From: an uncultured bacterium
GTDB lineage: Bacteria > Krumholzibacteriota > Krumholzibacteriia > LZORAL124-64-63
Assembly: GCA_903912525.1 (NCBI GenBank)
Contig: CAIWHK010000060.1
Span: 1 to 64,000 of the forward strand
DNA: 64,000 bases
Reading direction: 5' to 3'
Shown here: positions 434-63,199 of the stretch, piece after piece
How positions within the stretch are numbered: the first letter of the stretch is position 1
Layout: every line of letters starts with the position of its first letter
The notes under the pieces: model-generated
Told to the model about the DNA's origin: nothing
The model's input: the letters and a program-made list of their open reading frames with translations, nothing else
The model's database searches: none
Position numbers and translations under genes: made by a program

Positions 434-2857
<2,424 letters not shown>

Positions 2858-24480: not shown

Positions 24481-24661
24481 CGTCAAGACCTCGCTATTGC
24501 GGGCACGCAAGGGCCCCAGCCGCTCGCCGGTTATCACGACCCCGAGAACCTTGCCCCACCCCCGGCGACCGTGCAACATTCTTCCCTGCCGGGCGCGTAC
24601 ACGCTGTTTGCGCACCATGCGCCTTGGCCCCGGCCCGCCAACACCGCCAGGAGGTTCCCCT

Positions 24662-27600
24662 GTGAAGCGCCTCAGCCTGTTGCTCGTTCTCTTGACGTCC
24701 CTGCTGCTGGGCATTGCGGCCGCCAACGCCGCCGCGCCCGACCAGCCCGGGTACCTGGCCCGCTACGCCGACATCGGCGGCGGCAACATCGTGTTCACCT
24801 ATGAGGGCGACCTCTGGCTCGTGCCCGAGCAGGGCGGCGAGGCCCGCCGCCTGACCACGCATGCGGGCAGCGAAGTGATGGGCAAGATCAGCCCCGACGG
24901 CAAGCTCATCGCGTTTACCGCCGAGTACGACGGCGGCAACGACATCTACGTGATGGATGTCCTGGGTGGCGAGCCGAAGCGGCTGACCTGGCACCCGGCG
25001 GCCGACACGATGCTCGACTGGTGCCCCGACGGCAGCGGCGTCGTCATCTCGAGCAACCGCGAGTACCCGAACCGCGGGCAGCTCTTCAAGGTGTTCCTGG
25101 ACGGCGGCATGGAGATGCGCCTGCCCGTGGATCGCGGCTCGCTCGCCTCGGTGGCGCCCGACCACAGCGGCCTGGCCTACAACCGCATCAACCGCCAGAC
25201 CGCGACCTGGAAGCGGTACGAGGGCGGCATGGCCCAGGACATCTGGGTGAAGGACCTCAAGGGCGGCGACATCACGAAGATCACCGACTGGACCGGCACC
25301 GACAGCTTCCCGATGTGGGGACAGGGCGCCATCTACTTCATCAGCGACCGCGAAGACGGCACGCTGAACATCTACGCCTACGACACCACGACGAAGCAGA
25401 CGAAGCGGCTCACGACGTTCAAGGACTACGACGTGAAGTGGCCGTCGTACGGCGAGGGCAAGATCGTCTTCCAGTACGGCGCCGGGCTGAGCGTGCTCGA
25501 CTGCGCCACCGGCCAGGTGCGCCCGGTGCCCGTCACGGTGCACTCGGACCGCCGCCACGTCCGCGAGGAGTTCATGGACGATGCGCCGAGCATCGGCTCG
25601 TTCGGCCTGTCGCCCGGCGGCGAGCGCGCGGTGCTCGAGTCGCGCGGCGAACTGCTGAACCTGCCGGCCAAGGACGGCGACGCGGTGAACCTGACGCAGA
25701 GCAGCGGCTCGCGCGAGAAGTACGGCACCTGGAGCCCCGACGGCGGCCGCATCGCCTTCGTCAGCGACCGCACGGGCGAGGAGCAGATCTACATCATGCC
25801 GGCCAAGGGCGGCGCCGCGAAGCAGCTGACCACCGGCACCTTCGGGTTCACGATGCAGCCGGTATGGTCGCCCGACGGCAAGAGCCTCATCTTCGCGGAC
25901 AAGTTCCTGCGCCTGAACCTGGTCGATGTCGCCACGGGCAAGACGTCGGTCGTCGTCCAGGGCGAATACGACGATGCCTGGGAGCGCTGGGGCATCATGG
26001 ACTACGTGTGGTCGTCCGACAGCCGCTGGATCGCCTACACGAAGCAGACCGGAAACATGAACGAGGAGATCTGGCTGCACGACACGAAGACGGGCACGGG
26101 CACGATGGTGACCGACAACATGTACAACAGCTGGTCGCCGAGCTTCTCGCGCGACGGCAAGTACCTGTACTTCCTGTCCAACCGCACGTTCAACCCGATC
26201 ATGTGCCGCATCGACCAGCAGCACATCTTCCTCGACGTGGCGCGCCCCTACATGGTCCTGCTGCAGGCGGGCGGGCGCTCGCCGTTCTACAAGGGCGACA
26301 CCGACGTGCCGGTGACCGTGCTGGGCGCCACGACCGAGGGCGCCAAGGACGTGCCGGCGGCGAAGAAGTCGGCGGGCAAGGGCGCGGCGTCGCCCAGCTT
26401 TGCACCGGTCAACATCGACCTGGCCGGCCTCGGTGACCGCATCCTGGCCTGTGACGGCGTCGACGCCGGGAACTGGTTCCGGCTCGAGGCCTGCGACGGC
26501 GGCTTCCTGATGCTGCGCAGGAACGATCCCGAGTTCCTCAAGTACCAGAACGTCGATGACCGCACCGGCGGCGAGCTGGACCTGGTCAAGTACGACCTGG
26601 GCGACAAGGAGCTCACCGACCTGATGACCGGCATCGCCAACTATCACCAGAGCGCCGACGGCAAGAAGCTCATCTTCCGCGCCGGCTCGAAGTACGGCAT
26701 CGTCGACTGTGGCAAGGCCGCCAAGACCAGCGACGGCAAGCTGGCCACGAACGGCGTCAAGCTGCGGGTGGACCACCTGGCCGAGTACCGCCAGATGTTC
26801 GACGAGACCTGGCGCATCCAGCGGAATTTCTTCTACGACAAGAATATGCAGGGCACCGACTGGCAGGCCATGCACGACAAGTACGCGCCGTTCGTGGCCG
26901 GTTGCGGCTCGCGCGGCGACCTCAGCTACCTGCTGGGCGAGATGATCAGCGAGCTGAACCTGGGCCACACCTACGTGCAGGGCGGCGACTTCGAGCCCGG
27001 CCCGGCGCCCATCCGCACCGGCCTGCTCGGCTGCACGTTCACGCGCGAGGGCGAGCAGCCGTTCTACCGCTTCGCCGGCATCGTGCCGGGTGTGGCGTGG
27101 GACCCGAAGTACGTCTCGCCGTTGCGCGAGCCCGGCGTCGACGTCAAGAACGGCGACTACCTGGTGGCCATCGACGGCGAGCAGGTGAAGTACCCGGACA
27201 ACGTGTACGCCCACCTGGTGGACAAGGCGGGCCAGAACGTGACGCTGACGGTGGCAAGCGACGCGGCCGGCAAGGTCACGCGCACCGTGCGCCTGAAGAC
27301 GCTGCGCAGCGAGGGCGACCTGCGCTACCGCGCGTGGGTCGATGCGAACCTCGACTACGTGACGAAGAAGTCGGGCGGCGACATTGCCTACCTGCACATC
27401 CCGAACATGGGCGAGGAAGGCCTGGTCGAGTTCGGCCGCAGCTACTACGCGCAGACCGAGAAGCCGGCGATGATCATCGACGAGCGCTACAACGGCGGCG
27501 GCTTCACCGGCGACATGATCATCGACCGCCTCGAGCGCGTGCTGTGGTCCATGACGCAGCCCCGCGAGGGCAAGTCCGGCCGCAATCCCGAGCGTGTTTT

Positions 27601-28018
27601 CCACGGCCCGCTGGTCGTGCTGATCAACGAGGACACCGGCAGCAACGGCGAGTTTTTCGCCGAGGCCATCAAGCGCCTGAAGCTGGCCAAGGTCATCGGC
27701 ATGCGCACGTGGGGTGGTTCCATCGGCATCGAGCCGCACCAGGACCTGGTCGACGGCGGCGGCATCACCCCGCCGCAGTTCGGCCTCTTCGGCCTGGACG
27801 GCAGCTGGCCCATCGAGGGCTGGGGCGTCGAGCCGGACATCATCGTGATGAACATGCCGAAGGACGTCGTCGACGGCAAGGACACGCAGCTGGACTACGC
27901 CATCGACTACCTGCAGAAGGAACTGGCGACCAACGGCGCGCAGTGGAAGATCCCGGCCGCGCCCGCGTACCCGGACAAGAGCAAGCCGCGGATGAGCGCG
28001 GACTACCAGGGGAAGTAG
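24662..28018 (+). CDS. Secreted tricorn-like S41 protease
   Basis: A 1,118-residue protein with a signal peptide (residues 1-26, ending A-A-A-N-A-A). Residues about 30-700 carry WD40/PD40-like propeller blades, visible as repeated S-P-D-G-K and W-S-P-D-G motifs; these form the two propellers of tricorn proteases. Residues about 740-820 are the C1 core (E-T-W-R-I-Q-R-N-F-F-Y), 830-920 a PDZ domain, and 930-1085 the S41 peptidase core. The catalytic serine is in D-T-G-S-N-G-E-F-F. The GTG at 24662 follows AGGAGG by 8 nt. The family degrades peptides left by other proteases; a periplasmic place is inferred from the signal. A strong terminator follows. Confidence 0.92.
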   Translation: MKRLSLLLVLLTSLLLGIAAANAAAPDQPGYLARYADIGGGNIVFTYEGDLWLVPEQGGEARRLTTHAGSEVMGKISPDGKLIAFTAEYDGGNDIYVMDVLGGEPKRLTWHPAADTMLDWCPDGSGVVISSNREYPNRGQLFKVFLDGGMEMRLPVDRGSLASVAPDHSGLAYNRINRQTATWKRYEGGMAQDIWVKDLKGGDITKITDWTGTDSFPMWGQGAIYFISDREDGTLNIYAYDTTTKQTKRLTTFKDYDVKWPSYGEGKIVFQYGAGLSVLDCATGQVRPVPVTVHSDRRHVREEFMDDAPSIGSFGLSPGGERAVLESRGELLNLPAKDGDAVNLTQSSGSREKYGTWSPDGGRIAFVSDRTGEEQIYIMPAKGGAAKQLTTGTFGFTMQPVWSPDGKSLIFADKFLRLNLVDVATGKTSVVVQGEYDDAWERWGIMDYVWSSDSRWIAYTKQTGNMNEEIWLHDTKTGTGTMVTDNMYNSWSPSFSRDGKYLYFLSNRTFNPIMCRIDQQHIFLDVARPYMVLLQAGGRSPFYKGDTDVPVTVLGATTEGAKDVPAAKKSAGKGAASPSFAPVNIDLAGLGDRILACDGVDAGNWFRLEACDGGFLMLRRNDPEFLKYQNVDDRTGGELDLVKYDLGDKELTDLMTGIANYHQSADGKKLIFRAGSKYGIVDCGKAAKTSDGKLATNGVKLRVDHLAEYRQMFDETWRIQRNFFYDKNMQGTDWQAMHDKYAPFVAGCGSRGDLSYLLGEMISELNLGHTYVQGGDFEPGPAPIRTGLLGCTFTREGEQPFYRFAGIVPGVAWDPKYVSPLREPGVDVKNGDYLVAIDGEQVKYPDNVYAHLVDKAGQNVTLTVASDAAGKVTRTVRLKTLRSEGDLRYRAWVDANLDYVTKKSGGDIAYLHIPNMGEEGLVEFGRSYYAQTEKPAMIIDERYNGGGFTGDMIIDRLERVLWSMTQPREGKSGRNPERVFHGPLVVLINEDTGSNGEFFAEAIKRLKLAKVIGMRTWGGSIGIEPHQDLVDGGGITPPQFGLFGLDGSWPIEGWGVEPDIIVMNMPKDVVDGKDTQLDYAIDYLQKELATNGAQWKIPAAPAYPDKSKPRMSADYQGK

Positions 28019-28151: not shown

Positions 28152-31100
28152 TCAGCGCAGCAACATCATCTTCCGCTCCACGCGCTGCCCGTCCGCTTCC
28201 AGCCGGCTCAGGTACAGCCCGCTGGCGACGTCACGCCCGCTGTCGTCGCGCCCGTCCCACGCCACGGCGTGGACGCCCGCTTCCAACGGCGTGTCGGCCA
28301 GCAGCACCCGCACGAGCGAACCGCGCAGGTCGTAGATCGCCAGACCGGGGCTCGCGGCCTTCGCCAGCTCAAAGCGGATCTCCGTGCGCGGGTTGAACGG
28401 GTTCGGCCGGTTCGCCAGCAGGCCGAAGGCGGGCGCGGGCGTGCCGGGCGTCGCCGACGGCGCCAGCGCGTAGGTCAGGTGCAGGCCCCACGAGTTGAGT
28501 GTCCCGGTGTCGGTGCTGGCCGTGTCCGAGACGAACAGCGTCCAGTTGCCGAAGGCCGGGCCGCCGGCGAAATCGGCCAGCGCGCCGGGGCCGTCCACCG
28601 TCAGCGTCGTCCCGTAGGTGCCGTTGATGTTGTCGGCCGAGCTGCCGGTCCGGTTGTGCAGCCGCACCACCGTGCCGTTCGGCGAGGTCAGCGAGACGGT
28701 CAGGTCGCCGCGCCAGGTGTGGGTCACCGAGATATCGACGGTGACGGCCGAGACGTCGGCGTTCAGCGGCACGTTGATCACCGACGTGATGCCGGTCGCG
28801 TTGTTGTCGGGAATCGCCACAGGCACCGCGCGCACATAGTCCGCCGTGGCCACCGGGTAGATCTGGACGTCGTGGCGGAGAGCCTGTCCTTCCTCGAGCA
28901 CCAGCGGGCGGCTGCTGGCGCCGACGCCGGGCGCGGTCACCGACAGCGTGTAGGCGCCCGCGTAGAGGTTGTCCAGGACATAGGAGCCGTCGGCGCCCGA
29001 CGTGGTGGTGTGACCGGCGCCCACGCTCACGGTCGCGCCGACGACGGCCGTCGAACCGCCCGCGGTGACGGCCAGGATCCGCCCGTAGACCGAGGCCGTC
29101 GAGGCGCCCTGGTCGGCCAGCAGCCAGGAGGCCGCGTTCTCCACGAGATGCCGCGCCGCCGTCGTGTCGGCCAGCGCGCCGACGTTGAAGGCCAGCACGA
29201 CGATCTGCCCGGCGTGCGGCACCACATCGTTGTCGTAGGCCAACACGCCCGCCGCATCGGCGTAACCCGAGGTGCCGAAGACCACCGTGGCGTCCGCGGC
29301 CGGCGAGAGCGCGTCCTGGTCCCCGTAGCCGCCATAGGTCAGGTTGAGCACGGCCGGGAGCGCGTGCGGCGTCTTGGCCAGCGGATGCGTCGGCTGGGCG
29401 ACCTGCAGCGTGCCGGCATTGTCGGCGCGCCAGGTCGTCGCGTGCAGCACGCCGGTGGCGAACGCCGGGTAGCCGGGCGACGAGATGGCGTCGTAGCCGA
29501 CCTCGCCGCCTTCGACGACCAGCTTGCCGCCGCCGGCGGTCCAGTCCTGCAGCAGGGTGCGCAGGGAGGCGCTCGCGACCGGCGCCGTGTTGGCGCCGCT
29601 GGTCAGCACCACGAACTGGGGACCGACAAAGTCGGTCGCCACCACGGAAGTCGCGGCGACCTTGCGCGTCACGTAGCCGGCCTGCCGCAGCCAGCGGTCG
29701 ATGTCGGCCGGCGCCGCCTTGTCGGCAGCGGGTGCGGGCAGCGGGCGCTTGTCGTCGTCGTACTTGAGGTCGTCGCCCAGCGATTTGGCGGTCGTGTCGT
29801 CGATGACCAGGGCCACGCCCAGCGCATCGATGATGGCGAAGGCGTGCGGGCCATCGTTCACGGTGTTGGGAGCAGCAGCGACATCCGTGGCCGCCACCGA
29901 GTAGCTGAAGGCGTCGCCGGTCGCCAGCGAGCCGGCCGCGACCGGGAACGGCGCCGCGTAGCTGCCGCCGCCCTGCGGCGCCAGCGTGAAGCCGGCCTGG
30001 GCGACGCCGTTGATGCTGTAGGCCACGGTCACCGAACCGATGCCGAGGTTGTCCGTCACCTGCGCGCGGACGATCACCGGCCAGGTCAGCAGGGGCTGGT
30101 CGCCGATCGGCGTGTGCGCGATGACCGGCGCCGTCACGTCCGGCCCGACATGGAAGGTGAAGGGCGCGCCCGCGCCGCCGGTCGGCAGCGACGTGACGAT
30201 GCCGCCCGCGTCGCCGGCCGACAGGTAGTACTCGACGTCCGTGCCGGACGCCTGGGCCGGAATGGGGGCCGAGTAGCTGCCGCCGCCGCCGGATGCGAGC
30301 GTGACCGCCTGCCACGCGCCGCCGCCGGCGCGCCAGTGCAGCTGCAACTGCGCCGGATCCAGCGCCAGGCGGTCGGTGATCGTCGCGGTCACGAGGTAGT
30401 CCGAACCCGTATTCTCGGTGTCGGCCAGCGGCGTGTGCGCGATCGAGGCGCCGAAGTAGAACACGGCGTTGTAGGCGTTGAGGATGCCCCAGCCGTAGTC
30501 GTTGTCGGGCGCGCCGGCGCGACTGGCCGTCGCGCGCATGGCCTCGCGCACCTGCATCGGCGTCAGCGTCGGCACGCGCGACAGCACCAGGGCGGCGACG
30601 CCCGAGGTGAGCGGGCACGAGAACGACGTCCCGGACGCCGTCTCGTAGCCGTTGATCGTGCCCACCGAAGCGACGTGGTTGCCCGAGCCCAGCGCGGCGA
30701 CGTCGGGCTTGATGCGCCCGTCGGCGCTCGGTCCGGGCGAGGAGAACGAGGAATAGGTGCCCGTGCTGGTGACCGCGCCGACCGCGATCACGCTGTCGCC
30801 GTCCGCCGGCGCGACGATGTGGTTCCAGGCGGCGCCGCGCTCGTTGCCGGCCGAGTTGCAGACGACGATGCCCTTGCCCGCGGCCAGGTCGGCCGCGATG
30901 GTGCAGGCGGCGGTGTTGCCGTCCATGTCCGCGAAGGTGAACCAGTCGATGTAGCCCAGCGAACTGGAGACGACGTCGACGCCGAAGGTGTCCAGCCACT
31001 CGATGCCCGCCACCCAGTTGTCTTCCTCGGCCGGCACCTCTTGCGACGTGTCCTCGGTCTTCGCCAGCACCAGCGTGGCGCCGTAGGCGGGCCCGACATG

Positions 31101-31931
31101 GCTCCCCGGCGCGTAGCCGGCAACCGTCGACATGGTCATCGTGCCGTGGCTGTCCTGGCCGGACGGGTCCCCGGGCTGGTTCTCGACGACGCCGTCGTTG
31201 TTGACGAAGTCCCAGCGCGCCAGGACCGGCAGGGGCGACAGGCACTCGTGCGTGGTGCGGAAGCCGGAATCGAGCATGCCGATGATCACGCCCTGGCCGT
31301 GGAAGCCCGCTTCATGCACCTGGGGCACGGCGATCTGCTCGAGGTCCGCGAGGTTGCCGCCGTAGTTGATGGTCCACTGGGCGCTGTCGGCCGCGTACGG
31401 CGCCGCGGCGGCGGGCGCGGTCACGATCGCCGGCGCCGGCTGGGCGCGCCGCACCAGCGTCACGGCGCGCACCTGCGGCAGGGACGCCAGCGCGTCCACC
31501 TGTGAGGCATCGACGTCGAAGCTCGCGGCGTTCAGCCAGCGTGAGACGCGGCGCAGGCGGGCGCCGGTCGCCGCGACCGCATCGACGTGGGCCGCGGACA
31601 CCGGCAGGTCGGTGACGTCGACCAGGCGGGCCTGCCCGTCCAGTGACTTGTCGTCCGTCATCACTTTGGCGCGCCGCGCGACGGCATGGTCGCCGAGCTG
31701 CTCCTGGGCCCGTGCCAGCGCCGCGTCCAGGTCGCGCCCGGTCAGCCCCTTGTCGGTGAACCAGACCCACACCGCGACCGTACCGTCGGCATTGCGCCCC
31801 GCGAACGCCGGATCGGCCAGGGCTGCCGTGGCGCCGGGTGAAACGACGGGAGTGTTCGCAGACTCGGCGCTGCCCGCAAGCAACGCGGTGAGCAGGCCGG
31901 CCAGGATCAGGATGCGGGCACGACGATTCAT
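28152..31931 (-). CDS. Secreted multidomain subtilisin-like (S8) protease with FlgD-like sorting domain
   Basis: A 1,259-residue exported protein; the ATG at 31931 follows GGAGG by about 9 nt. A signal peptide and a propeptide-like region (to about residue 180) precede the S8 domain. The catalytic triad is Asp in G-M-L-D-S-G-F (about 220), His in D-S-H-G-T-M (about 260) and Ser in G-T-S-F-S-C-P (about 432). Residues about 530-690 are Ig-like. Residues about 700-940 look like a class I glutamine amidotransferase fold. A carboxypeptidase-regulatory domain follows (about 943-1025), then a P-type proprotein convertase domain (about 1030-1155) and a FlgD/T9SS-like end (N-P-F-N-P, W-D-G-R-D). Likely anchored outside the cell, role in protein degradation. 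Confidence 0.9.
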   Translation of the reverse strand: MNRRARILILAGLLTALLAGSAESANTPVVSPGATAALADPAFAGRNADGTVAVWVWFTDKGLTGRDLDAALARAQEQLGDHAVARRAKVMTDDKSLDGQARLVDVTDLPVSAAHVDAVAATGARLRRVSRWLNAASFDVDASQVDALASLPQVRAVTLVRRAQPAPAIVTAPAAAAPYAADSAQWTINYGGNLADLEQIAVPQVHEAGFHGQGVIIGMLDSGFRTTHECLSPLPVLARWDFVNNDGVVENQPGDPSGQDSHGTMTMSTVAGYAPGSHVGPAYGATLVLAKTEDTSQEVPAEEDNWVAGIEWLDTFGVDVVSSSLGYIDWFTFADMDGNTAACTIAADLAAGKGIVVCNSAGNERGAAWNHIVAPADGDSVIAVGAVTSTGTYSSFSSPGPSADGRIKPDVAALGSGNHVASVGTINGYETASGTSFSCPLTSGVAALVLSRVPTLTPMQVREAMRATASRAGAPDNDYGWGILNAYNAVFYFGASIAHTPLADTENTGSDYLVTATITDRLALDPAQLQLHWRAGGGAWQAVTLASGGGGSYSAPIPAQASGTDVEYYLSAGDAGGIVTSLPTGGAGAPFTFHVGPDVTAPVIAHTPIGDQPLLTWPVIVRAQVTDNLGIGSVTVAYSINGVAQAGFTLAPQGGGSYAAPFPVAAGSLATGDAFSYSVAATDVAAAPNTVNDGPHAFAIIDALGVALVIDDTTAKSLGDDLKYDDDKRPLPAPAADKAAPADIDRWLRQAGYVTRKVAATSVVATDFVGPQFVVLTSGANTAPVASASLRTLLQDWTAGGGKLVVEGGEVGYDAISSPGYPAFATGVLHATTWRADNAGTLQVAQPTHPLAKTPHALPAVLNLTYGGYGDQDALSPAADATVVFGTSGYADAAGVLAYDNDVVPHAGQIVVLAFNVGALADTTAARHLVENAASWLLADQGASTASVYGRILAVTAGGSTAVVGATVSVGAGHTTTSGADGSYVLDNLYAGAYTLSVTAPGVGASSRPLVLEEGQALRHDVQIYPVATADYVRAVPVAIPDNNATGITSVINVPLNADVSAVTVDISVTHTWRGDLTVSLTSPNGTVVRLHNRTGSSADNINGTYGTTLTVDGPGALADFAGGPAFGNWTLFVSDTASTDTGTLNSWGLHLTYALAPSATPGTPAPAFGLLANRPNPFNPRTEIRFELAKAASPGLAIYDLRGSLVRVLLADTPLEAGVHAVAWDGRDDSGRDVASGLYLSRLEADGQRVERKMMLLR

Positions 31932-32209
31932 CTGGGTGGACCTCCGGATGCAACATATGACACCATCGGAAACAGGCCGCGATGGTAGCACACGGGCTCG
32001 GTGAAGTGCGCGTTCAAAGCCACCGGAGGTGATGCCGATGGTGCGCACTGTCGGGACGATTTTGTGATAAATGTGCCGAAGATATGCTTGATTTGCACGG
32101 CGTCCCGGTAGGACGATGACGCCGACGACCGGACGGCAGTCCGCAATACTTGCGCCGGCGCAAGTCGTCGTCGGTCGAGGCGATCCACATGGTTGCGTGA
32201 GGTGTTCCG
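31932..32209. other. Divergent intergenic region containing palindrome copy 3
   Basis: This 278-bp gap separates the subtilisin-like gene (minus) from the small membrane protein gene at 32210. The AT-rich part, 32055-32100, may hold promoters. The palindrome at 32149-32164 lies 45 bp before the small gene. Confidence 0.6.
32149..32164. repeat. Palindrome CTTGCGCCGGCGCAAG, copy 3 (upstream of 32210)
   Basis: Exact copy of the palindromes at 6246 and 24146; here also extended to 18 bp (32148-32165). It is 45 bp upstream of the next start codon, a typical operator distance. Confidence 0.9.
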
Positions 32210-32542
32210 ATGTCACCCGAAAGCGATGAGGCCACATCGAACCCGACACCTCGGCCCTGCGAACCTGCGGAGGACTTCGATCCCGATCTCCTCCCTACTC
32301 AATGGGGCCCGCTCATGTTCCGTTGCGGTCGATTGACCTTCGAGGAACTGTTGTGGAGCACGGGCATCACCTGTTTCGGCGGCTACATGGCGTACGACGG
32401 CATCACGAGTTCCATGGTCATCTCGAAATACGCGGGGATCCTCTGCGGCTCGGGCGTCGCGCTGGCCGGTCTCGGCATCTTCTTCAAACTCATCAAATCC
32501 GGTGATCTGTCCTTCCATCGCGTCGGGACACGCGATTCGTAG
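32210..32542 (+). CDS. Small predicted membrane protein of unknown function
   Basis: The 110-residue product has a polar, acidic N-terminal 45 residues, then two hydrophobic stretches (G-I-T-C-F-G-G-Y-M-A-Y-D and Y-A-G-I-L-C-G-S-G-V-A-L-A-G-L-G-I-F-F). These suggest one or two membrane passes. A GAGGTGTTCCG precedes the ATG. Two cysteines, in T-C-F-G and L-C-G, lie in the hydrophobic parts. No family is recognised. It could be a real small gene or an unused frame; the codon use and ribosome-binding site support the former moderately. Confidence 0.55.
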   Translation: MSPESDEATSNPTPRPCEPAEDFDPDLLPTQWGPLMFRCGRLTFEELLWSTGITCFGGYMAYDGITSSMVISKYAGILCGSGVALAGLGIFFKLIKSGDLSFHRVGTRDS

Positions 32543-32763
32543 CGATCTCGGCGGCGTACCCGAACCGGCGCCACCGTCCCTGCAGGAACACCCGGCGACC
32601 CGGTCCCGCACGACGAAGTGATCGCGATCCGGCGCATGTCGCCGTTCCGCAACAGGTTGCCCGATCGGCGCCGTTCTGGCCCCAACCCTGCTTGGCTACC
32701 GTCGCGACAGCAGGCCTGGATATCGCCCAGGCTCGAGTCCCGACACCGAACCGGAGGGTCCTC

Positions 32764-33924
32764 ATGAAACGCATCCTGACCATCGCCGCCGCCCTCGGCC
32801 TGCTCCTGTTCCTGACTGCCGGGTGCAGCCAGGACGGCACGCCGGCCGGGTCGGAGACCAGCGCCACCGATGACTACTCGACGATCGACCTCAGCCAGGA
32901 CTTCGGCGGGCTGACCGTCACGGACGAGAACACGGCCTTCGACGATCCCGAGATGAAGGCGATGCTCGCCATGGAAGCGCAGGATGAGGTCGCCGATCCC
33001 GTCGCCGTCATGCCGGACGTGGTGGCGATGGACCGGATGGGCCGCGAAGCGAGCTCCGTGCCGGACAGCCTGCGCCCGCAGTTGACGTTCCTGTCCCTGC
33101 GCTGGGGCCACCTGGCGGGTCTGCGCGACGCGCTCGACGACAGCGTGGCATGCGACGTCACCGACTGGACCGGCTCGCTCAGCGTGGATCGCGGCGTGCT
33201 CGTGGTCCGCCGCAAGATCGCCTTCGAGTCTCCCCGCGACCATCTCGTCTTCCCGCGCATCGATCGTCGCACCGTGGCGCTGGTGTCGCACACCGGTTGC
33301 GGCTTCGACGGCCTCGTGATCCAGGTCCTGGAGCGCCCGGACACGACCGGAGCGGTGCTCGAGCCCAACCGGCTGCACATCAACCTCGGTCCCTACACCG
33401 CCGACTTCGATATCGCCGACCTGGCGACGATCGAGGAAGTCGTCGCTGTCGACGCGTTCGGCAACAGCATGGAGCTGACCGGCTTCAACCCGCGCGAGGC
33501 GCGCGCGTGCCCGAAGGGCTTCCTGTCGGCCCGCTACCGTCACCTGCCCGCCGACCGGCCGGACTCGCTGGCGGGCGGCGGCACGATCCTGGGGCACTAT
33601 GCCGGCGCGTGGCGCACGCTGGACGGCCGGCTCGACGGCTTCATGCGCGGCGCCTACGGCCTCGACGCCGACGGCCAGCACGTGTTCGTCGGCAAGTACA
33701 TCGGTCGCAACGGCCACTTCCGCGGCCGCATCCGCGGCACCTGGGCCGAGGGCGCGGCGGCTGACGACCTGGTGAGTTTCGAAGGCCAGTGGTTCGGCGC
33801 CGCCGGTGCCGCCGAGGGCGTGCTGGCCGGCGACGGTCACCCGGTCGAGGGTTCGGCCGGCGGGTTCCTGGTCGGGCGTTGGGCGACGCTCTGCGACCCG
33901 GACGCCGTCGACACCGTGCGCTAG
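32764..33924 (+). CDS. Lipoprotein of unknown function
   Basis: A 386-residue protein with a lipoprotein signal: M-K-R, a hydrophobic run, then L-T-A-G-C, so Cys20 would be lipidated and the protein anchored to a membrane. GGAGG lies 6 nt before the ATG. The mature N-terminus is acidic and probably flexible. After residue 130 the sequence becomes a beta-rich region containing repeated G-x-Y/F-x-G turns, such as G-H-Y-A-G-A-W and G-R-W-A-T. I do not recognise a domain. A strong terminator follows at once, so it is transcribed alone or as the last gene after 32210. Confidence 0.8.
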   Translation: MKRILTIAAALGLLLFLTAGCSQDGTPAGSETSATDDYSTIDLSQDFGGLTVTDENTAFDDPEMKAMLAMEAQDEVADPVAVMPDVVAMDRMGREASSVPDSLRPQLTFLSLRWGHLAGLRDALDDSVACDVTDWTGSLSVDRGVLVVRRKIAFESPRDHLVFPRIDRRTVALVSHTGCGFDGLVIQVLERPDTTGAVLEPNRLHINLGPYTADFDIADLATIEEVVAVDAFGNSMELTGFNPREARACPKGFLSARYRHLPADRPDSLAGGGTILGHYAGAWRTLDGRLDGFMRGAYGLDADGQHVFVGKYIGRNGHFRGRIRGTWAEGAAADDLVSFEGQWFGAAGAAEGVLAGDGHPVEGSAGGFLVGRWATLCDPDAVDTVR

Positions 33925-33935
33925 AGCGATTCCCG

Positions 33936-33972
33936 AAGGCGCCGCCCCTTGCCGGGCGGCGCCTTCTTTTTT
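33936..33972 (+). terminator. Strong intrinsic terminator after the lipoprotein gene
   Basis: AAGGCGCCGCCC (33936-33947) pairs perfectly with GGGCGGCGCCTT (33954-33965), followed by CTTTTTT. Confidence 0.88.
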
Positions 33973-34034
33973 CGGCTTGATATCGCCGTTGCCGCAGCCG
34001 CCCGGGGTGGCTATGCTGGCGCCCATGGAGGCGA

Positions 34035-35435
34035 ATGACGCATGACGACCGACGACCGGACATGACCCGCGGTCGCCGCTGGCTGGCATGGGCGGCCCTG
34101 GCCTATGCCTCCATCCTTCTCGCTGTCTTCCTCGGCCTGAACTACCTGTACGTCGGTGCGCGCCAGAAGCTGGACGACGCGATGGGGCAGCGCCTGCTGG
34201 GCGTGGCCCGAAGCGTCGCGCTGATGTGCGACGGCGAGCGCATCTTCCTCGCCACCCTCGGCGACAGCCTCGGGCTCGACTACCTCGACGGACTCGCGGC
34301 GGTCTGCGACACCATTCGGCAGTCGGAGTCGCTGGCCGAGATCACGCTTACCGACCCGGTGGACGAGCGCGTGCTGATGTCGACGTCGCAGGCCCTGCGC
34401 CGCGGCGATCACAACGACTTCCTGGCGCTCGATCCCGGGGCGGTCGCCTCGGCGAGCGGCGGCGTGGCCGCTGCGGGGCCGCTCTACCGGGACCCGCGCC
34501 TGCCCGGCTCGTTCCAGAAGTCGGCCCACGCGCCGGTGTTCAACTACTCGACGGAAGGCGCCTACCAGGTGGGGCTGCTTACGGTCAGCGGCAGTCCCGA
34601 CTTCTTCTCGGCGCTGGGGCGCCTGCGCCGCGCCGCCTGGCTGACCGCCGCGGTCGTGCTGGCCGTGCTGGCCGCGCTGGGCGTCGTCCTGCAGAGGATC
34701 CATGTCGCGCTGGCGCGCTACCGCGCTTCGGTCATGCGCCAGGAGAATCTGGCCGCGATGGGACGCATGACCGCGGGCATCGCCCACGAGATCCGCAATC
34801 CGCTGGGGATCATCCGCGGCGCCGGGCAGCATCTCGAGCGCGTCCTCGGCGAAGCCGGCATCCAGGACGAGGTGGCCTCCTTCATCCCCGAAGAGGTCGA
34901 CCGCCTGGACCGCATCCTGACCGGCTACCTCGCCTTCGGCGCGGGGCAGGACGCGCCTCCCGAGGACTTCGACCTGGGCGACTGCCTGCGTCGCAGCGCG
35001 CGCCTGTCGGCCGGCGAGCTGCAGAAGCAGGGCGTGGAGATCGACCTGCCGGGCGTCGAGCCGGGCTTGATTGTGCGCGGCGATCCGCGTCGCCTGCAGC
35101 AGGTGTTCCTCAACCTGCTGTTCAATGCGCGCGACGCCATGCCGGACGGCGGGCGCATCAGTGTGCAGGCGGTTGCCGAGCCGGGCGCCGCGCGCGTGGT
35201 CGTGACGGTGACGGACGAAGGCACGGGCCTGGGCGGCGTCGATCGCCAGAAGTTGTTCGAGCCCTTCTGGACGACCAAGGAGAAGGGCAGCGGCCTGGGG
35301 CTGGCCATGTCCCGCCGGATCGTGGAGGATATGGGCGGTACGCTGGAGCTCCGCGACCGGCCTGACGCCCGCGGCGCCCAGGCCGTGATGGCGCTGCCGT
35401 TGTCGTCGGCCCAGGCGCCGAACCGGGAAGGATGA
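34035..35435 (+). CDS. Membrane sensor histidine kinase
   Basis: A 466-residue two-component sensor. Membrane segment 1 (about residues 15-37) and segment 2 (about 197-219) enclose an extracytoplasmic sensing region of about 160 residues. The HisKA domain has the H-box G-I-A-H-E-I-R-N-P-L, with the phosphorylated histidine, and the ATPase domain has the N-box F-L-N-L-L-F-N-A-R-D-A, then G-T-G-L-G and G-S-G-L-G-L. A GGAGG lies only 3 nt before ATG 34035; ATG 34062 is an alternative. The response regulator starts 4 bp after its stop, so the two are certainly co-transcribed. The architecture matches the NtrB/AtoS-type partner of a sigma-54 activator. The stimulus is unknown. Confidence 0.92.
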   Translation: MTHDDRRPDMTRGRRWLAWAALAYASILLAVFLGLNYLYVGARQKLDDAMGQRLLGVARSVALMCDGERIFLATLGDSLGLDYLDGLAAVCDTIRQSESLAEITLTDPVDERVLMSTSQALRRGDHNDFLALDPGAVASASGGVAAAGPLYRDPRLPGSFQKSAHAPVFNYSTEGAYQVGLLTVSGSPDFFSALGRLRRAAWLTAAVVLAVLAALGVVLQRIHVALARYRASVMRQENLAAMGRMTAGIAHEIRNPLGIIRGAGQHLERVLGEAGIQDEVASFIPEEVDRLDRILTGYLAFGAGQDAPPEDFDLGDCLRRSARLSAGELQKQGVEIDLPGVEPGLIVRGDPRRLQQVFLNLLFNARDAMPDGGRISVQAVAEPGAARVVVTVTDEGTGLGGVDRQKLFEPFWTTKEKGSGLGLAMSRRIVEDMGGTLELRDRPDARGAQAVMALPLSSAQAPNREG

Positions 35436-35439
35436 CTTC

Positions 35440-36792
<1,353 letters not shown>

Positions 36793-36842
36793 GCCGGCCG
36801 TTCCCGGGGCGGCGGAGCGTACCGCTGCGTACGGGGCCGGCT

Positions 36843-36857
36843 GCGAGCCTTGCTCGC
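36843..36857. promoter_or_regulatory. Inverted repeat upstream of the sigma-54-like promoter
   Basis: GCGAGC-CTT-GCTCGC is a perfect 6-bp inverted repeat with a 3-nt spacer, about 80 bp upstream of the -24 element. This is a usual place for an NtrC-type activator site. No known site is matched; the role is inferred from position. Confidence 0.35.
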
Positions 36858-36925
36858 TGGGGAATTGGGCGTCTTGCAAGTTGTTTTGATGCAGAGGCTT
36901 ACGGTGTTGGCGCCCGCGGTGGGCG

Positions 36926-36941
36926 TGGCATGAAGCCTGCT
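36926..36941 (+). promoter_or_regulatory. Sigma-54-type (-24/-12) promoter
   Basis: TGGCATGAAGCCTGCT matches TGGCACG-N4-TTGCW at 9 of 11 positions, and the invariant GG and GC are separated by 10 nt as required. The start codon at 36998 lies about 57 nt downstream of the -12 box. It sits directly behind an NtrC-type regulator gene. Confidence 0.55.
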
Positions 36942-36997
36942 ACTCCGCACTGGTTCACAAATGTCCGGCAGCAGCGATCAAGCGAATGAGGTGCGCC

Positions 36998-38065
36998 ATG
37001 AGGGGTCAGACACGCGGATTCGGGAAGCCTGCGCTGCGCGCGGCGGTGCTGCCCGTGGTGCTGGCCGCGGCCTTCCTGGCCGTGCTCGCGAGTCCGGGCG
37101 CGGTCCAGGCCCAGACCGGTTCGGGCGAGCAGTTGCGCGCCTACATCGAGCGCACCGACGAGCTGCTGGACTGGGCGTCCGGCCTGGTCGCCGACACGAA
37201 CAGCGAACAGGCACGGATGGTCCTCGAGCAGGCGCAGACGATCCAGCGTCGCGCGACGGCGCTGATGGAACGCGGCCGGCTGCTGGAATCGTTCGCCGTC
37301 GCCCGCCGCGCCCGCGACGCCACGTGGCATGCTGTCCGCCTGGCGCGCGAAGCCGCCAGCCTCGAGGAGCGCATCCGGCTGCGCGCCGAACGCTTTGCCG
37401 ACCAGCATTCGCAACTTCTGGACCGCGCGCGCGACGCCGGTGACCAGCGCGCGCTCGAACTGCTGCAGCGGGCAGGGGAGCAGGCGCGCCGGTCGCAGGA
37501 GCGCTTCCAGCAGGGCGATCTCGAACTGGCGTGGAATCTCCTCGAGCACGCCGAGGAACTGTTGCGGCGGGCGGCTCGCGTGCTGGCGCAGGGCGTCTGG
37601 CCGGAACGCCTGCGGCTCGAGATCGAGCGCACGCACAGCCTGGTCGAGGATGCCGGCGAGCGGCTCGGCGCCAACGCCCCGGCCGCGGCCGCCGCGCTGC
37701 TGGCCGAAGCCGAGGATGCCCTGGCCCGCGCCGAGGAAGCCAGCGCGCAGGGCGATCCCGGCCGCGCCCTGCAGATGGCCGGCCTGGCCCGTCGCCTGGC
37801 GCAGCGCGCCATCGCGCAGGTCGAGCCGAACGCCGATGGCGCGGGGGTGACGCGACTTCTGGAGCGCTTCGACGAGCGCGCCGGCGCGGTCGCCGAAGCG
37901 GTCCTCTCGTCGGGCAACGAGCCGGCGCAACAGGCCTTTGCCCGCGCGCGCGCCCAGCGTGACGGCGCAGCCCAGGCGCTGGTCGAGGGCCATGCCGAGA
38001 TCGCGCTGCGCCAGGTGCGCGCGGCCCACGATCTGCTCGATCAAGTCGAACGAATGCTGCGTTGA
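36998..38065 (+). CDS. Secreted alpha-helical repeat protein
   Basis: A 355-residue exported protein; the ATG at 36998 follows GAGGT by 5 nt (an in-frame ATG at 36986 is also possible). A signal peptide ends near A-V-Q-A-Q. The mature protein is almost all charged helix rich in Ala, Arg, Glu and Leu with heptad-like periodicity, such as L-E-R-A-R-D-A-G-D-Q-R-A. This suggests helical bundles or a coiled coil in the periplasm. No domain is recognised. It is the first gene after the sigma-54-like promoter and is followed with almost no gap by a barrel-like protein, so they may be an envelope pair. Confidence 0.75.
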   Translation: MRGQTRGFGKPALRAAVLPVVLAAAFLAVLASPGAVQAQTGSGEQLRAYIERTDELLDWASGLVADTNSEQARMVLEQAQTIQRRATALMERGRLLESFAVARRARDATWHAVRLAREAASLEERIRLRAERFADQHSQLLDRARDAGDQRALELLQRAGEQARRSQERFQQGDLELAWNLLEHAEELLRRAARVLAQGVWPERLRLEIERTHSLVEDAGERLGANAPAAAAALLAEAEDALARAEEASAQGDPGRALQMAGLARRLAQRAIAQVEPNADGAGVTRLLERFDERAGAVAEAVLSSGNEPAQQAFARARAQRDGAAQALVEGHAEIALRQVRAAHDLLDQVERMLR

Positions 38066-38070
38066 GTCTC

Positions 38071-39375
38071 ATGCCCGGACGCCATCTCGTCCTGCTGTTC
38101 CTGGCGACCGGCGGCCTCGCTGTCTGGCCGTCGGGCGCCGCGCGCGCCGGGGCGGGGGCGGGGCAGACGGCCTGGAACTGGGATCTCACGGCCGGCTTCG
38201 ACAGCTTCACCCACTCGTACGCCCTGGCCAACACCGACACCAGCGAGACCGTGACCGAATTCATGACGCAGGCCGGATTCGAGGGCCGGTCCGCGAACAG
38301 CGGCGCCTCGCGCTGGCGCGTGCGGGGCGAAGCGTCGGCGGGCACGGACCTGTGGCGGGAACGTCTGGAAGCCGATTGGCGGCGGGTCGACCACGGGGGA
38401 TCGACGCGCGTCCGCGCCGCCGGTCGCCTGTGGGGGCGTCAGTACCGGGATGATTCCGACTATGCGCGATCCAGCAACCAGGTCGAAGGCCGCGGCGAGT
38501 TGCAGGTCGTTCCATGGGCTGCGCGTCACGCCGAATTGACGGCCGGCGGCTGGGGAACCTTCACCGGGTTCGCGACGCCGTCACCCCTCGAACAGAACCT
38601 CAGGGAATTCGGGGCGGTGGTGGGCGCACGCTCGCGCGGCCTCACCGGTCCGCAGTGGACCGTGTCGCTGCGCCGCGCCGCGCGGTCCTATCCCGATTCC
38701 GCCGCCATCGATCGCAAGACGTGGAGCCTCGACGGCGACGTCAATCACCAGGCTGCGAACGGCGGTTCGGTGCGGCTCTTCCATCGCAGTGAACGTCGCC
38801 TTGCCGCCGAACCCGACGTCCGCCCGGATGCCTGGTCCCACTGGACGGATGTCGCGGCCGCGGTGCCCGCCTTGGCCGGGCAGGCCACCGTTGAAATCCA
38901 GAGCGAGAGTTGGCGCTACGGTCAACCGACGGAGATCTACCTCGACTGTTGGCGCCTGTCGGGCGTCCTGGGCTACCGGCGCGGCGACATCCTGGGGCCT
39001 CAATGGAGCCTGGGGCTTGCCGGCGAACGTTTCGAAGCGGGCGATTCTCCGGAGAGCTATGCGCAGGCCGGCGTGCGCGCGGGCATCGAGTCGCTCGGTG
39101 GCCGGCTCAACGGCTCGCTCAGCGTCGAGTATGGGCGCCGCGACTACGCCGGCAACGCCGCCGGCGAGGCGACTGCCGACGATGTGACCGGCATCGCGAC
39201 CGACATCCCCTACTCCGACTTCAACTACTGGAAGCTCTGGCTGCTCGGCGAATGGCGCCTGGGCCCCGGCGTGTCGTTGCAGGCCATGGCTAGCTGGGAG
39301 CCCGAACGCCACACCGCGTCGGCCGACGACGCCTCCCTGGGCTTCACCAACCTGCGGCTGGTCTGGCGCCCCTGA
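38071..39375 (+). CDS. Exported beta-rich, barrel-like outer membrane protein
   Basis: A 434-residue protein with a signal peptide (hydrophobic L-V-L-L-F-L-A-T-G-G-L-A, then A-A-R-A-G). The mature chain alternates hydrophobic and polar residues in strands ended by aromatic residues and turns, for example W-N-W-D-L-T-A-G-F-D-S-F and L-W-L-L-G-E-W-R-L-G. The last residues (N-L-R-L-V-W-R-P) end close to an aromatic, as in outer-membrane barrels. A TTG at 38062, overlapping the previous stop, is an alternative start. No family is recognised; the barrel assignment is from strand pattern only. It is the second gene of the probable sigma-54-controlled unit. Confidence 0.65.
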   Translation: MPGRHLVLLFLATGGLAVWPSGAARAGAGAGQTAWNWDLTAGFDSFTHSYALANTDTSETVTEFMTQAGFEGRSANSGASRWRVRGEASAGTDLWRERLEADWRRVDHGGSTRVRAAGRLWGRQYRDDSDYARSSNQVEGRGELQVVPWAARHAELTAGGWGTFTGFATPSPLEQNLREFGAVVGARSRGLTGPQWTVSLRRAARSYPDSAAIDRKTWSLDGDVNHQAANGGSVRLFHRSERRLAAEPDVRPDAWSHWTDVAAAVPALAGQATVEIQSESWRYGQPTEIYLDCWRLSGVLGYRRGDILGPQWSLGLAGERFEAGDSPESYAQAGVRAGIESLGGRLNGSLSVEYGRRDYAGNAAGEATADDVTGIATDIPYSDFNYWKLWLLGEWRLGPGVSLQAMASWEPERHTASADDASLGFTNLRLVWRP

Positions 39376-39393
39376 CGGGTACGGCCGAGCGGG

Positions 39394-40044
39394 TCAGCGC
39401 TCGTCCCGCGGACCGAGCGCATCAGCCGCCCTGTTCACGCGTTCCTCGAGATGCCGCAGGCGTTGTTCGATGCGCCCCAACCCTTCGCCATCCGCGAGCC
39501 CGGGCTCGCTGTGTGCCGTGGCCACCGGCCGTCGGCGAACGAACCGCATGTAGCCCAGCCCCAGCGTGATGGCCAAGGCGACCGTCATCACTGCGAATCG
39601 CGCCACCGAGGTGTCGGTGGCGATGATCCAGCCCACGCCGTAGACCATCGTGAAGACGCCGCCCAGCAGCAGGCCGTTGCTGATCACCGGCAACTGGTCG
39701 GCGCGCACCAGGGAGACGGCCATCACCATCGTGGCAAGTGCGACCAGGATGATGCTCGTGCTGCGGCCCCAGGCTTCGCGCCGGGCCTGCGACTCGTCGT
39801 AGAGCTTGTTTCTCTCTTCGGTGATCCGCTGGACCTCGTCGCGGTCCGCAACCGACAGGTCATCCTGCGGGCTCTTGATGCGGATCGCCTGCTCGCGGCG
39901 GTCCAGTTCCTGGATCCGCAGGTCGGGCTGCTTCGCGGGCGGGTGGAACGTGTAGACGCCCACGCCGAGGAAGGCCGTCAGCATCAGGCCGAGGAAGAAC
40001 GAGAAGATCGTCTGCAGCCCGTTGCTGCGTCCGGCGTGGACCAT
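39394..40044 (-). CDS. Integral membrane protein of unknown function
   Basis: The 216-residue product has an N-terminal membrane segment (F-S-F-F-L-G-L-M-L-T-A-F-L-G-V-G-V), a charged helical region (D-R-R-E-Q-A, D-E-V-Q-R-I-T-E-E-R-N-K), then three further membrane segments ending A-L-A-I-T-L-G-L-G-Y. The C-terminus is a charged helix (R-I-E-Q-R-L-R-H-L-E-E-R), possibly a coiled coil. GGGAG lies 7 nt before the ATG. It is the last gene of the operon started by the lipoprotein at 43566, 57 bp after the glycine-zipper gene. No function can be assigned. Confidence 0.7.
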   Translation of the reverse strand: MVHAGRSNGLQTIFSFFLGLMLTAFLGVGVYTFHPPAKQPDLRIQELDRREQAIRIKSPQDDLSVADRDEVQRITEERNKLYDESQARREAWGRSTSIILVALATMVMAVSLVRADQLPVISNGLLLGGVFTMVYGVGWIIATDTSVARFAVMTVALAITLGLGYMRFVRRRPVATAHSEPGLADGEGLGRIEQRLRHLEERVNRAADALGPRDER

Positions 40045-60432: not shown

Positions 60433-62778
60433 CTAGCGCGTGGTCGGGTCCGCCTGCCGCAGCCAGCGGTACAGCGTCATGCGCGAGACGCCCAGCTGTC
60501 GCGCCGCCCGCGCCTTGTTTCCTCCCGTTCGCGCCAGCACCGAATGCAGCGCCGTACCGCCCGGTCGGCGGGCGCCGGTGTTGAGCGCCGGCTCGCAGGC
60601 GTCATCGACGCACAGCGTATCGAGTTCCTCGTCGCGGCGCAGGATGACGGCCAACCCCTGGCGACGGTTGAGCCACGCCTGCTGCGCCAGCAGTTCCAGT
60701 TCGGCCACGTTGCCGGGCCAGGCATGTTCGGCCAGGGCCACAAGGGCCGGCGTGTCGAACACGGAGCGGGCCGTCAGGGCCGAGCCCTCCAGCCGCGTCA
60801 GGAAGTGGTCCAGCAGCGGCAGCAGGTCTTGCCGACGCTCGCGCAGCGGTGCCACCCGTACGGTCATCAGGCGCAGGCGGAAGTAGAAGTCCGGACGGAA
60901 TCGTCCGGCTTCGGCCAGCGTGGCCAGGCTGTCGTCGGCGGTCGCGACGATGCGGATGTCCAGCGGCTGCTCGCCGCCGTCGCTGCGCCGTCGCCAGGAA
61001 CCGTCGCGCACCAGGCGCAGCATCTCCATCTGCAACGCCGGGGGCAGGGCCGCGACGTCGGTCAACACCAGGGTGCCGCCGTCGGCGCGCGCCAGCAGGC
61101 CGTTCGAACCGTCGCCGGCTTCGCCTTCCAGCTCCCACGACAGCGTCGACGTGTCGCCGCCGGCGCAGTCCAGCCGCAGGAAGGGCTGGCCGCCGCGGGG
61201 GCCATTCTCGTGCAGGCGACGCGCCAGCAGCGAGCGCCCGCTGCCCGGCTCGCCCACGACCAGCGCGGGGCCGGCGTGGCGCGCGAAGCCGTCGCACCGG
61301 CGCAGCGACTGCTGCAGGGCGGGCGACACTGCCACCACGCGGGTGCCCGGCGCACGGCGCGCCGAGAACGTGCGCCACAGGGACTGGTCGCCGCCGTCGC
61401 GCAGGCGGCGGCGCGAAAGCTCCGCCACCACGGCGGCGATCTCACCGGCCAGGCCGGGCACGCCCAGGTCCTGGCTGGCCTGTTGCGCCCGCAGAGCGCT
61501 GCGCCAGGCCGTGTTCAGGGTGTCGGCCCCGGCGCCCTGGGGCCCGGCGCCTTCGGGGGCGCGACCCAGCAGCCGCGCCAGGTGGTAGTCGCAGATCATT
61601 GCTTCGTGCCGCGCCGTCATCGCCAGCAACTCGACCGCAGCCTCTTCCAGTTCGCGACGGGCCACGGGCAGCCGCCCCAGGTTTGCCGCGTTCAGGCCGA
61701 GGCAACGGCGGATGATCGCCGTCTCGTAGCGGTCGCCGACCTCGTGCGCCAGCGACAGGGCCTCGTCCAGCACGCGCAGTGCATCGGCGTGGCGCCCCTC
61801 GAGGTCCAGGCACTCTCCCTCGCGACGCAGCAGCTCCATCACCAGGTCGCCGCGCGGCGCCAGGCGGCGGGCCACGCCCATCGCGCGGCGATAGTAGACG
61901 CGCGCCTCGGCGGGGCATCCCTCGTCGCGGCAGACATCGCCCAGGAATTCCAGGGCCAGCGTCTCCTCGCGCGCGAAGCCGTGCTCCTTCGCCATCGCGT
62001 AGGCGTCGAGCAGTTCGGCGCGTGCGGCGTCGAACTCCTCGCGCAGCCGGCGCACGTTGCCCAGGGCCAGGCGGGCGCGGCAGTTCATGTCGGGCAGGCC
62101 GGCGACCAGGGTGAGCTCGGAAGCGAGCAGCTCGGCCGCGGGCTCGTAGTCGCCCTGCTTGTAGCAGACGATCGCCAGGTTCTGGTAGTTCTGGGCCAGG
62201 CGCGGCCGGGCGCCCAGCTGGCTGTTGATGGCCAGGCTCTTCTCGAACCAGCGGCGCGACTCGTCGAGACGGCCCGCCGACAGGTACGTCCAGCCCAGGA
62301 AATTGGCGGCGACGGCGCCGCGCACGGGTTCGTCGAGCACGGTGAAGGCGGAGCAGGCGTACTCGACGTGGCCGGTCGCCTCCTGCAGGCGCCCCTGCCA
62401 GCGCAGCGCGGCACCCAGCAGCAGGCGCAGTTCCGCATGGACGGCGTCGGGAACAGACGTCCCGTCGTGGGCAGCCAGCAATGCGCGGGCGGCGACCTCG
62501 ACCTCGACGTAACGCCCGTCCAGCAGGGCCAGGTTGAGTTCGAGGGCCCGCAGCGCGGGATCCCCGGCAGCGGCGATGCCCTGCGTGACCATCTCGCGCA
62601 AAGCTTCGCGGACCTCGTCGTGGCGCTTCAATTCGACCAGGCACCACGCGCGCAGCAGGGCGGCCTCGCGGCGCACCGCGGGGTTGTCGTCGGATCTGAG
62701 GGTCGCCTCGAGCACGACCAGCGCCTCGGCATGACGGCCCTGGCGGTGGAGGCGGCGGGCATCGCGGTCAGGGCGCAC
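60433..62778 (-). CDS. TPR-AAA+ regulator with degenerate sigma-54 activator domain
   Basis: A 781-residue protein; GTG 62778 follows GGAGG by 7 nt (an ATG at 62820 is a weaker alternative). Residues about 1-430 are tetratricopeptide repeats. An AAA+ domain at about 490-705 resembles NtrC-type activators, but the Walker A reads G-E-P-G-S-G-R-S with arginine for lysine, the GAFTGA loop is absent, and the Walker B region is T-L-V-L-T-D-V with the usual D-E lost. The arginine-finger region F-R-P-D-F-Y-F-R-L is kept. A Fis-type helix-turn-helix (S-R-M-T-L-Y-R-W-L) ends it. It probably regulates without contacting sigma-54. Confidence 0.85.
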   Translation of the reverse strand: MRPDRDARRLHRQGRHAEALVVLEATLRSDDNPAVRREAALLRAWCLVELKRHDEVREALREMVTQGIAAAGDPALRALELNLALLDGRYVEVEVAARALLAAHDGTSVPDAVHAELRLLLGAALRWQGRLQEATGHVEYACSAFTVLDEPVRGAVAANFLGWTYLSAGRLDESRRWFEKSLAINSQLGARPRLAQNYQNLAIVCYKQGDYEPAAELLASELTLVAGLPDMNCRARLALGNVRRLREEFDAARAELLDAYAMAKEHGFAREETLALEFLGDVCRDEGCPAEARVYYRRAMGVARRLAPRGDLVMELLRREGECLDLEGRHADALRVLDEALSLAHEVGDRYETAIIRRCLGLNAANLGRLPVARRELEEAAVELLAMTARHEAMICDYHLARLLGRAPEGAGPQGAGADTLNTAWRSALRAQQASQDLGVPGLAGEIAAVVAELSRRRLRDGGDQSLWRTFSARRAPGTRVVAVSPALQQSLRRCDGFARHAGPALVVGEPGSGRSLLARRLHENGPRGGQPFLRLDCAGGDTSTLSWELEGEAGDGSNGLLARADGGTLVLTDVAALPPALQMEMLRLVRDGSWRRRSDGGEQPLDIRIVATADDSLATLAEAGRFRPDFYFRLRLMTVRVAPLRERRQDLLPLLDHFLTRLEGSALTARSVFDTPALVALAEHAWPGNVAELELLAQQAWLNRRQGLAVILRRDEELDTLCVDDACEPALNTGARRPGGTALHSVLARTGGNKARAARQLGVSRMTLYRWLRQADPTTR

Positions 62779-63199
62779 GGTGCCACCTCCCCACGGGGGA
62801 CGCGGGCCGGGCGCCGACATTGGTGAACGAACCGGTGGACGGGTCGATGCGGATGAGGCGGAACGTCAGCCAGGGCTGGCCGCCGGGATTGAAGCACGGC
62901 AGCAGCGCCCAGGTGCCCGTGGTGGCCTGCAGCGTGGTCGTCACGCCTGCGTCGCTCGCAACGACAGGGCTGGCCGGGGCGGACGAACCCTGCGACGTCG
63001 CCGATTGGATGGGCCCCATGTGCGAGATGTCGGCCGGGCGCAGGACGCCGTCGCCCGGGTCGCCGGCAGGTTCGTCGCTCAGGATGGGGAGCGCGGCCTG
63101 TGCGCGGTGGTCGGGCCACGTTCCGGCCGACAGAAGCGCCGCCGTCAGGAGTGTGGCCAACCCGCGATGCAGGCGACGAGACGTAAACGTGCGAGCCAT
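62768..63199 (-). CDS. Small secreted protein of unknown function
   Basis: A 143-residue product starting at ATG 63199; a weak GGA lies 6 nt upstream. A signal peptide (R-L-H-R-G-L-A-T-L-L-T-A-A-L-L-S-A) is followed by a proline-rich, acidic stretch and a beta-rich end (W-L-T-F-R-L-I-R-I). The stop overlaps the start of the TPR-AAA+ gene by 11 bp, so it precedes that regulator in one transcript. No family is recognised. It might be the regulator's extracellular partner, but that is speculation. Confidence 0.6.
   Translation of the reverse strand: MARTFTSRRLHRGLATLLTAALLSAGTWPDHRAQAALPILSDEPAGDPGDGVLRPADISHMGPIQSATSQGSSAPASPVVASDAGVTTTLQATTGTWALLPCFNPGGQPWLTFRLIRIDPSTGSFTNVGARPASPVGRWHRAP

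Follow-up and report, generated by a model that had tools for sequence, protein, structure and literature searches.

The window analyzed here, a 64,000-nucleotide stretch on contig C60 of the 4.29-Mb genome of an uncultured bacterium from the class Krumholzibacteriia, very probably contains the central locus of a two-component sigma-54 regulon of NtrC type that serves the cell envelope and extends across the class. Consecutive genes encode a membrane kinase (HK), a response regulator (RR), an exported helical protein (HEL) and a predicted outer-membrane barrel (BAR), and they are preceded by the gene for a lipoprotein (LIP) that appears to be a second target (Table 1). Gene order, the predicted promoter and enhancer, and a shared site before LIP emerge from sequence comparison with related genomes. 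Through the adjacency of RR, the promoter and the enhancer, this comparison strongly supports the original prediction that the system exerts sigma-54 control over its own neighbors, and the exported targets are in keeping with a role in the envelope. The circuit is, however, not as self-contained as had been proposed: LIP, which lies elsewhere in most relatives, is apparently controlled too, as are a few exported proteins in some genomes. The outcome is a putative regulon, with one regulator, one enhancer sequence and at least two conserved targets, in a lineage represented here by metagenome assemblies alone. Three protein families that match no known family thereby gain a proposed mode of regulation, and a joint role in the outer envelope is suggested for them.

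Table 1. Features of the locus, with positions counted from the first nucleotide of the window
Feature	Position	Strand	Description
Enhancer (UAS) of LIP, CGTCCCTGCAGGAACA	32575-32590	+	predicted by composite scan; its centre is 94 bp upstream of the -24 element
-24/-12 sigma-54 promoter of LIP, TGGCCCCAACCCTGCT	32677-32692	+	predicted by composite scan; start predicted at ~32703
LIP	32764-33924	+	lipoprotein of 386 aa without a match in Pfam or NCBIfam
Terminator-like hairpin	33935-33966	+	13-bp stem, T tail; between LIP and HK gene
HK	34035-35435	+	membrane histidine kinase; HisKA and HATPase_c (Pfam)
RR	35440-36792	+	NtrC-type sigma-54 activator: receiver, AAA+ with GAFTGA, Fis HTH
Conserved enhancer (UAS) of HEL-BAR operon, CGTACCGCTGCGTACG	36818-36833	+	predicted by alignment on the -24 element and family models
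Inverted repeat of the original prediction	36843-36857		chance-level, not conserved; unlikely to be where the regulator binds
AT-rich stretch between enhancer and promoter	36876-36901		lower GC when averaged over 33 loci
-24/-12 sigma-54 promoter of HEL-BAR, TGGCATGAAGCCTGCT	36926-36941	+	predicted by motif scoring and conservation between RR and HEL
HEL	36986-38065	+	exported, helical repeat; start may be ATG 36998
BAR	38071-39375	+	predicted outer-membrane beta-barrel; ATG 38071 (ORF list: TTG 38062)

The sensor kinase contains an extracytoplasmic part flanked by two hydrophobic segments (read by eye), and the Pfam matches of the regulator comprise Sigma54_activat (231 bits), Response_reg (84.2 bits), HTH_8 (40.6 bits) and an AAA lid. 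In alignment A5, D9, D52, K102, Walker A and GAFTGA, which an active NtrC-type regulator should have, are intact, with D52 and K102 invariant. Together with the domains of both proteins, this bears out the notion of an intact NtrC-type pair. Found alongside the receiver, the AAA+ domain with GAFTGA and the C-terminal Fis-type HTH are an adjoining membrane kinase, one RpoN with an activator-interacting domain in the genome, and an enhancer upstream of a -24/-12 promoter, for which the usual distance is given as 80-150 bp in PMC4987338. A fragment of a second RpoN lies at the contig start (window 3-476, minus strand; Sigma54_CBD 120 bits), without the N-terminal half, at 36% identity to the RpoN of contig C32 and with a stop just upstream; it could be a truncated paralogue, a pseudogene or an assembly join. 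Further along the window, a TPR protein (60433-62820, minus strand) has a weak Sigma54_activat domain, a Fis HTH and no receiver, and a motif search at this locus (L054) found no GAFTGA-like motif.

The HK-RR-HEL-BAR order recurs throughout the class. A protein search returned HEL homologues in 41 of 58 relatives, and the loci of 32 of the 40 other HEL genomes were compared (G032, G035, G051, G052, G053, G054, G056 and G057 were left out). RR is located immediately 5' of HEL in all 32, HK is present in 28, with contig ends in the other four, and BAR follows HEL in 27, with four contig ends and one case in which it was not detected; as the loci are related by descent, these counts are not independent. 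The order holds even where HEL identity falls to ~28-30% and BAR identity to ~22-27%, and relatives retrieved with the BAR alignment are titled Candidatus Krumholzibacteriota, Krumholzibacteriia or only "bacterium".

The same modules can be recovered from DNA signals alone. The pattern GTAC-N6-GTAC, followed after 85-115 bases by TGGC-N8-TGC, occurs at 20 places in 19 of 80 genomes, and its single place in the genome of the window is the present locus. Complete or partial modules were found in this way in G072, G074, G075, G076 and G078, which were outside the 58-relative HEL protein search. A control in which the promoter spacing differed by one base gave six places, none of them at a module.

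Between RR and HEL, we took the best site having GG and GC at the right spacing and obtained a -24/-12 site scoring at least 9/12 in 33 of 33 loci (the window and 32 others). Its score was matched by no more than 4% of shuffles in 31 of these (p <= 0.04), and the best score on the opposite strand was 9 in two loci and at most 8 in the others. The site of the window, TGGCATG-N4-CTGCT, scores 10/12 by our own count and begins 133 bp past the RR stop, consistent with the promoter that had been proposed within 200 bp of the pair; transcription is predicted from the GC at 36939-36940 to start at ~36952, in agreement with the earlier estimate of about 36953. Elsewhere, on contig C31 of G000 (L094), strict sigma-54 sites at 9570 and 5962 precede a gene for a FliA-like sigma factor and fall within the last part of an FlhB-like gene (gene names assigned by eye).

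Upstream of this promoter, the class shares an enhancer with the consensus TGTACC-N4-GGTACA, located just past the RR stop in most loci and centered mostly 82-131 bp above the -24 element, with a distance of only 49 in two HEL loci. Leave-one-out models within f1, the family of the window, recovered the enhancer in 24 of 25 loci at p <= 0.008, the remaining locus (L061) giving p 0.052. A model built from f1 only, applied to the other families, recovered it in seven of eight loci (p < 0.03). The exception, L086, has no enhancer by the model, and the composite scan gave two weak candidates there that reach into the end of the RR coding region. Both enhancers of the window are degenerate, each matching 9 of 12 positions.

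This palindrome replaces the inverted repeat originally proposed as the regulator's binding site and as a motif to look for before other genes. The repeat exists, upstream of the promoter as described, but at least one of its size arises in 43% of shuffles of that stretch, and it was found in none of the 32 other loci; as a regulator site it was rejected, and it is probably not bound by RR. With the predicted site corrected to 36818-36833, an experiment would address the right 16 bp. Between enhancer and promoter, the mean GC content of the 33 loci drops to 0.39-0.43 versus ~0.62, and this AT-rich stretch is a possible bending or IHF/HU-like site, in a position where looping proteins often act.

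A second predicted target is LIP. Homologues occur in 70 of 80 class genomes, most of which carry the gene away from the module. In the window, the score of its composite enhancer-promoter site was reached in none of 300 shuffles. Equivalent sites are present at 25 of 27 testable LIP loci (of 30), each unmatched in 300 shuffles, and scanning 533 kb of sequence, chiefly module loci, for composite sites yielded 61 versus 11 in reversed sequence. The two loci without a site belong to G001 and G002, of the same genus and 100% and 96% complete, in which searches found neither RR nor HEL. Among LIP loci of other families, a cut of UAS >= 10/12 and p <= 0.005 is passed by 26 of 34 testable ones and missed by eight; L216, with its match inside the estimated gene, was counted as a miss, and L217, which is too short, stayed outside the count. 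Two of three LIP loci scanned in families f4 and f8 (those of G037 and G055) lack the site. LIP is separated from HK by a terminator-like hairpin, the longer-stemmed of two such sites found in the scanned stretch versus 1.9 expected, and just before LIP the window encodes a tricorn-type protease (24617-28018, plus strand) and a large subtilase with a P-domain and an FlgD_ig end (28152-32237, minus strand).

The LIP enhancer-promoter distances cluster at 83-86, 93-96 and 103-107 bp, i.e., about one helical turn apart. Phasing gave R 0.86 at period 10.5 for LIP (53 values; L192, L193, L205, L207, L209, L213 and L214 left out, the below-cut L186, L196 and L216 kept) and R 0.45 at period 11 for HEL (32 values; L086 left out), both descriptive only, since the sequences are related. 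Such distances in helical steps fit action by DNA looping.

Additional predicted targets, in some genomes only, are mostly exported, judging by eye from signal sequences. They include a lipoprotein with a weak DUF4890 match, beside ZnuA/ABC-3 genes and preceded by two enhancers, in G048 and G052; a bacterial serpin lipoprotein (L227 1678-2937, 383 bits) with an enhancer and a sigma-54-like site upstream; a lipoprotein in L233; and small exported proteins in L234 (WXXGXW match) and L231. Candidates in L237, L243, L147, L152 and L154 are unclear or probably due to chance. With a looser promoter and a stricter palindrome, 36 places were obtained versus 13 in the reversed control (own count), so that single matches of this pattern are weak. 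As a side observation, the leader of a predicted target lipoprotein contains a near-identical block of ~50 bases in two genomes (L145 ~6925-6975 and its L146 counterpart); a known RNA element was considered for the leader of the extra target and rejected, an Rfam search giving no matches up to E 1.

Neither NCBIfam nor, above threshold, Pfam offers a match for LIP, HEL or BAR. Structure predictions nevertheless support the original description of the downstream products as a helical secreted protein and a barrel-like protein. After its signal sequence, HEL is modeled as regular helices in four units of ~80 aa (mean pLDDT 87, pTM 0.44). Taken singly, the three-helix units resemble DUF357-like bundles (Z 12.7, rmsd 1.8 over 77 residues), although the arrangement may simply be a common one. 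A known fold for the whole protein was sought and rejected, the best Foldseek match being a designed protein at E 0.0042, and the only Pfam match, to DUF4398, scored 16.7 bits against a gathering threshold of 27.9. BAR is predicted to form ~20 strands with no plug domain (mean pLDDT 84, pTM 0.75). Its nearest folds are TonB receptors minus the plug, Occ porins and AlgE, with best Z of 17-19 at 7-12% identity, and it has no sequence match in the PDB and no named family by sequence. The LIP profile matched no PDB sequence better than E 0.5.

The regulatory signals admit other explanations. If the -24/-12 motif were a chance match, the genes would be driven by another sigma factor. The strict pattern is indeed no commoner than its control, with five occurrences in the 4.29-Mb genome versus seven for the reversed pattern; the motif alone is not rare, and the site is convincing because it is conserved across loci, being kept at the same place in every HEL locus and also at most LIP loci. 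Other strict matches in the genome precede a type IV pilin gene and one for a FliA-like sigma factor, typical sigma-54 targets, and a sigma-70 promoter for the module genes was rejected, as no sigma-70-like site was found in 32300-39600. We therefore regard a chance match as very unlikely. Least probable of all is that the palindrome acts as RNA, i.e., as a terminator or hairpin ending the RR transcript, and that there is no enhancer. In most loci it lies close behind the RR stop, and it is built of 6-bp arms inverted around a 4-base gap, both of which would suit this role; but the same sequence stands before LIP, which most genomes carry at another place, with fixed spacings to the -24/-12 site. 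In several loci, moreover, the palindromes are paired 22-23 bp apart, and conservation extends to the letters themselves and not just to their pairing.

A rival that accepts both enhancer and promoters is that another NtrC-type activator serves them, RR adjoining HEL-BAR by operon history and having other targets. The genome offers 17 strong Sigma54_activat matches, and four f1 genomes (G016, G020, G025 and G032, of which G025 is 96% complete) keep the LIP site although no orthologue of RR was found in them. Against this, RR adjoins HEL in every locus compared, and the site is present in all 22 f1 genomes with RR and a testable LIP (G006 being counted as RR-bearing from a partial match). The complete f1 tally is 22 genomes with RR and site, none with RR only, four with the site only and two with neither; it is only suggestive, because both "neither" genomes, the G001 and G002 that also lack HEL, share one genus. 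The recognition helix of RR (around GITRR-x-x-YSR) shows only small changes among class orthologues, being conserved along with the site, and is absent from 13 other activators of the same genome (the 13 readable tails among 17 other loci tried). On balance, control by a different activator appears unlikely. For the exceptions at LIP, which include G043 and G044, where the site is kept and HEL was not detected, gaps in the assemblies, use of a second activator, and loss of HEL-BAR from genomes that keep RR would each account for a part.

In the preferred reading, RR itself would act at both promoters. HK would sense an extracytoplasmic condition and phosphorylate RR, an oligomer of which would bind the TGTACC-N4-GGTACA enhancers, mostly 82-131 bp above the -24/-12 promoters. 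With the DNA bent at the AT-rich stretch, RR would loop to RNA polymerase-sigma-54 and remodel it, switching on transcription of HEL-BAR and, from the second promoter, of LIP. HEL, BAR and LIP might then act jointly in the outer envelope. As a more speculative extension, which we put forward only tentatively and hold to be doubtful as yet, the three proteins could form a new trans-envelope assembly of an exported helical scaffold, a plug-less ~20-strand barrel and a lipoprotein, tuned by a dedicated sigma-54 envelope-stress system that would be the Krumholzibacteriota counterpart of ZraSR, Cpx or Psp.

A literature search combining the phylum with sigma54 found nothing on sigma-54 in Krumholzibacteriota, and the main text of a 2025 survey of sigma-54 regulons (PMC12316311), in the portion consulted, does not mention Krumholzibacteria. 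HK and RR score far below the NCBIfam cut-offs of AtoSC, ZraSR, NtrC and PrsKR. AtoS-AtoC is the best match of both proteins (181 of 646 and 419 of 714 bits), and PEP-CTERM PrsK-PrsR, likewise a kinase with an NtrC-type regulator, is among the best (90 of 300 and 366 of 502.6 bits). PilS-PilR-pilA shares the kinase-activator pair followed by a sigma-54 promoter and target gene, yet HEL and BAR are no pilins and the recognition helix differs (L038); a separate PilSR-pilA-like locus in the same genome (L093 3396-6536, contig C28 of G000) has its sensor-activator pair ahead of a strict -24/-12 site and a gene for a type IV pilin. The system that works most like the present circuit is enterobacterial ZraSR-ZraP, in which, according to PMC4987338, a membrane kinase and an NtrC-type activator drive the periplasmic chaperone ZraP from a sigma-54 promoter under envelope stress. 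ZraS is the second best NCBIfam match of HK and ZraR the third best of RR, but the circuit is no member of this system: the scores stay below the equivalog cut-offs (HK 174 of 479, RR 367 of 760 bits), zraP and zraSR are arranged divergently whereas HEL-BAR follows RR on the same strand, and HEL has no ZraP-type Pfam match and is joined by a barrel and a lipoprotein. A link between sigma-54 and the bacterial exterior was proposed earlier (Francke et al. 2011, PMC3162934), and the predicted targets, mostly exported or envelope proteins, share this theme. The present locus adds a specific putative regulon to it: the type of circuit is familiar, but the enhancer is its own and the cell-envelope response apparently undescribed.
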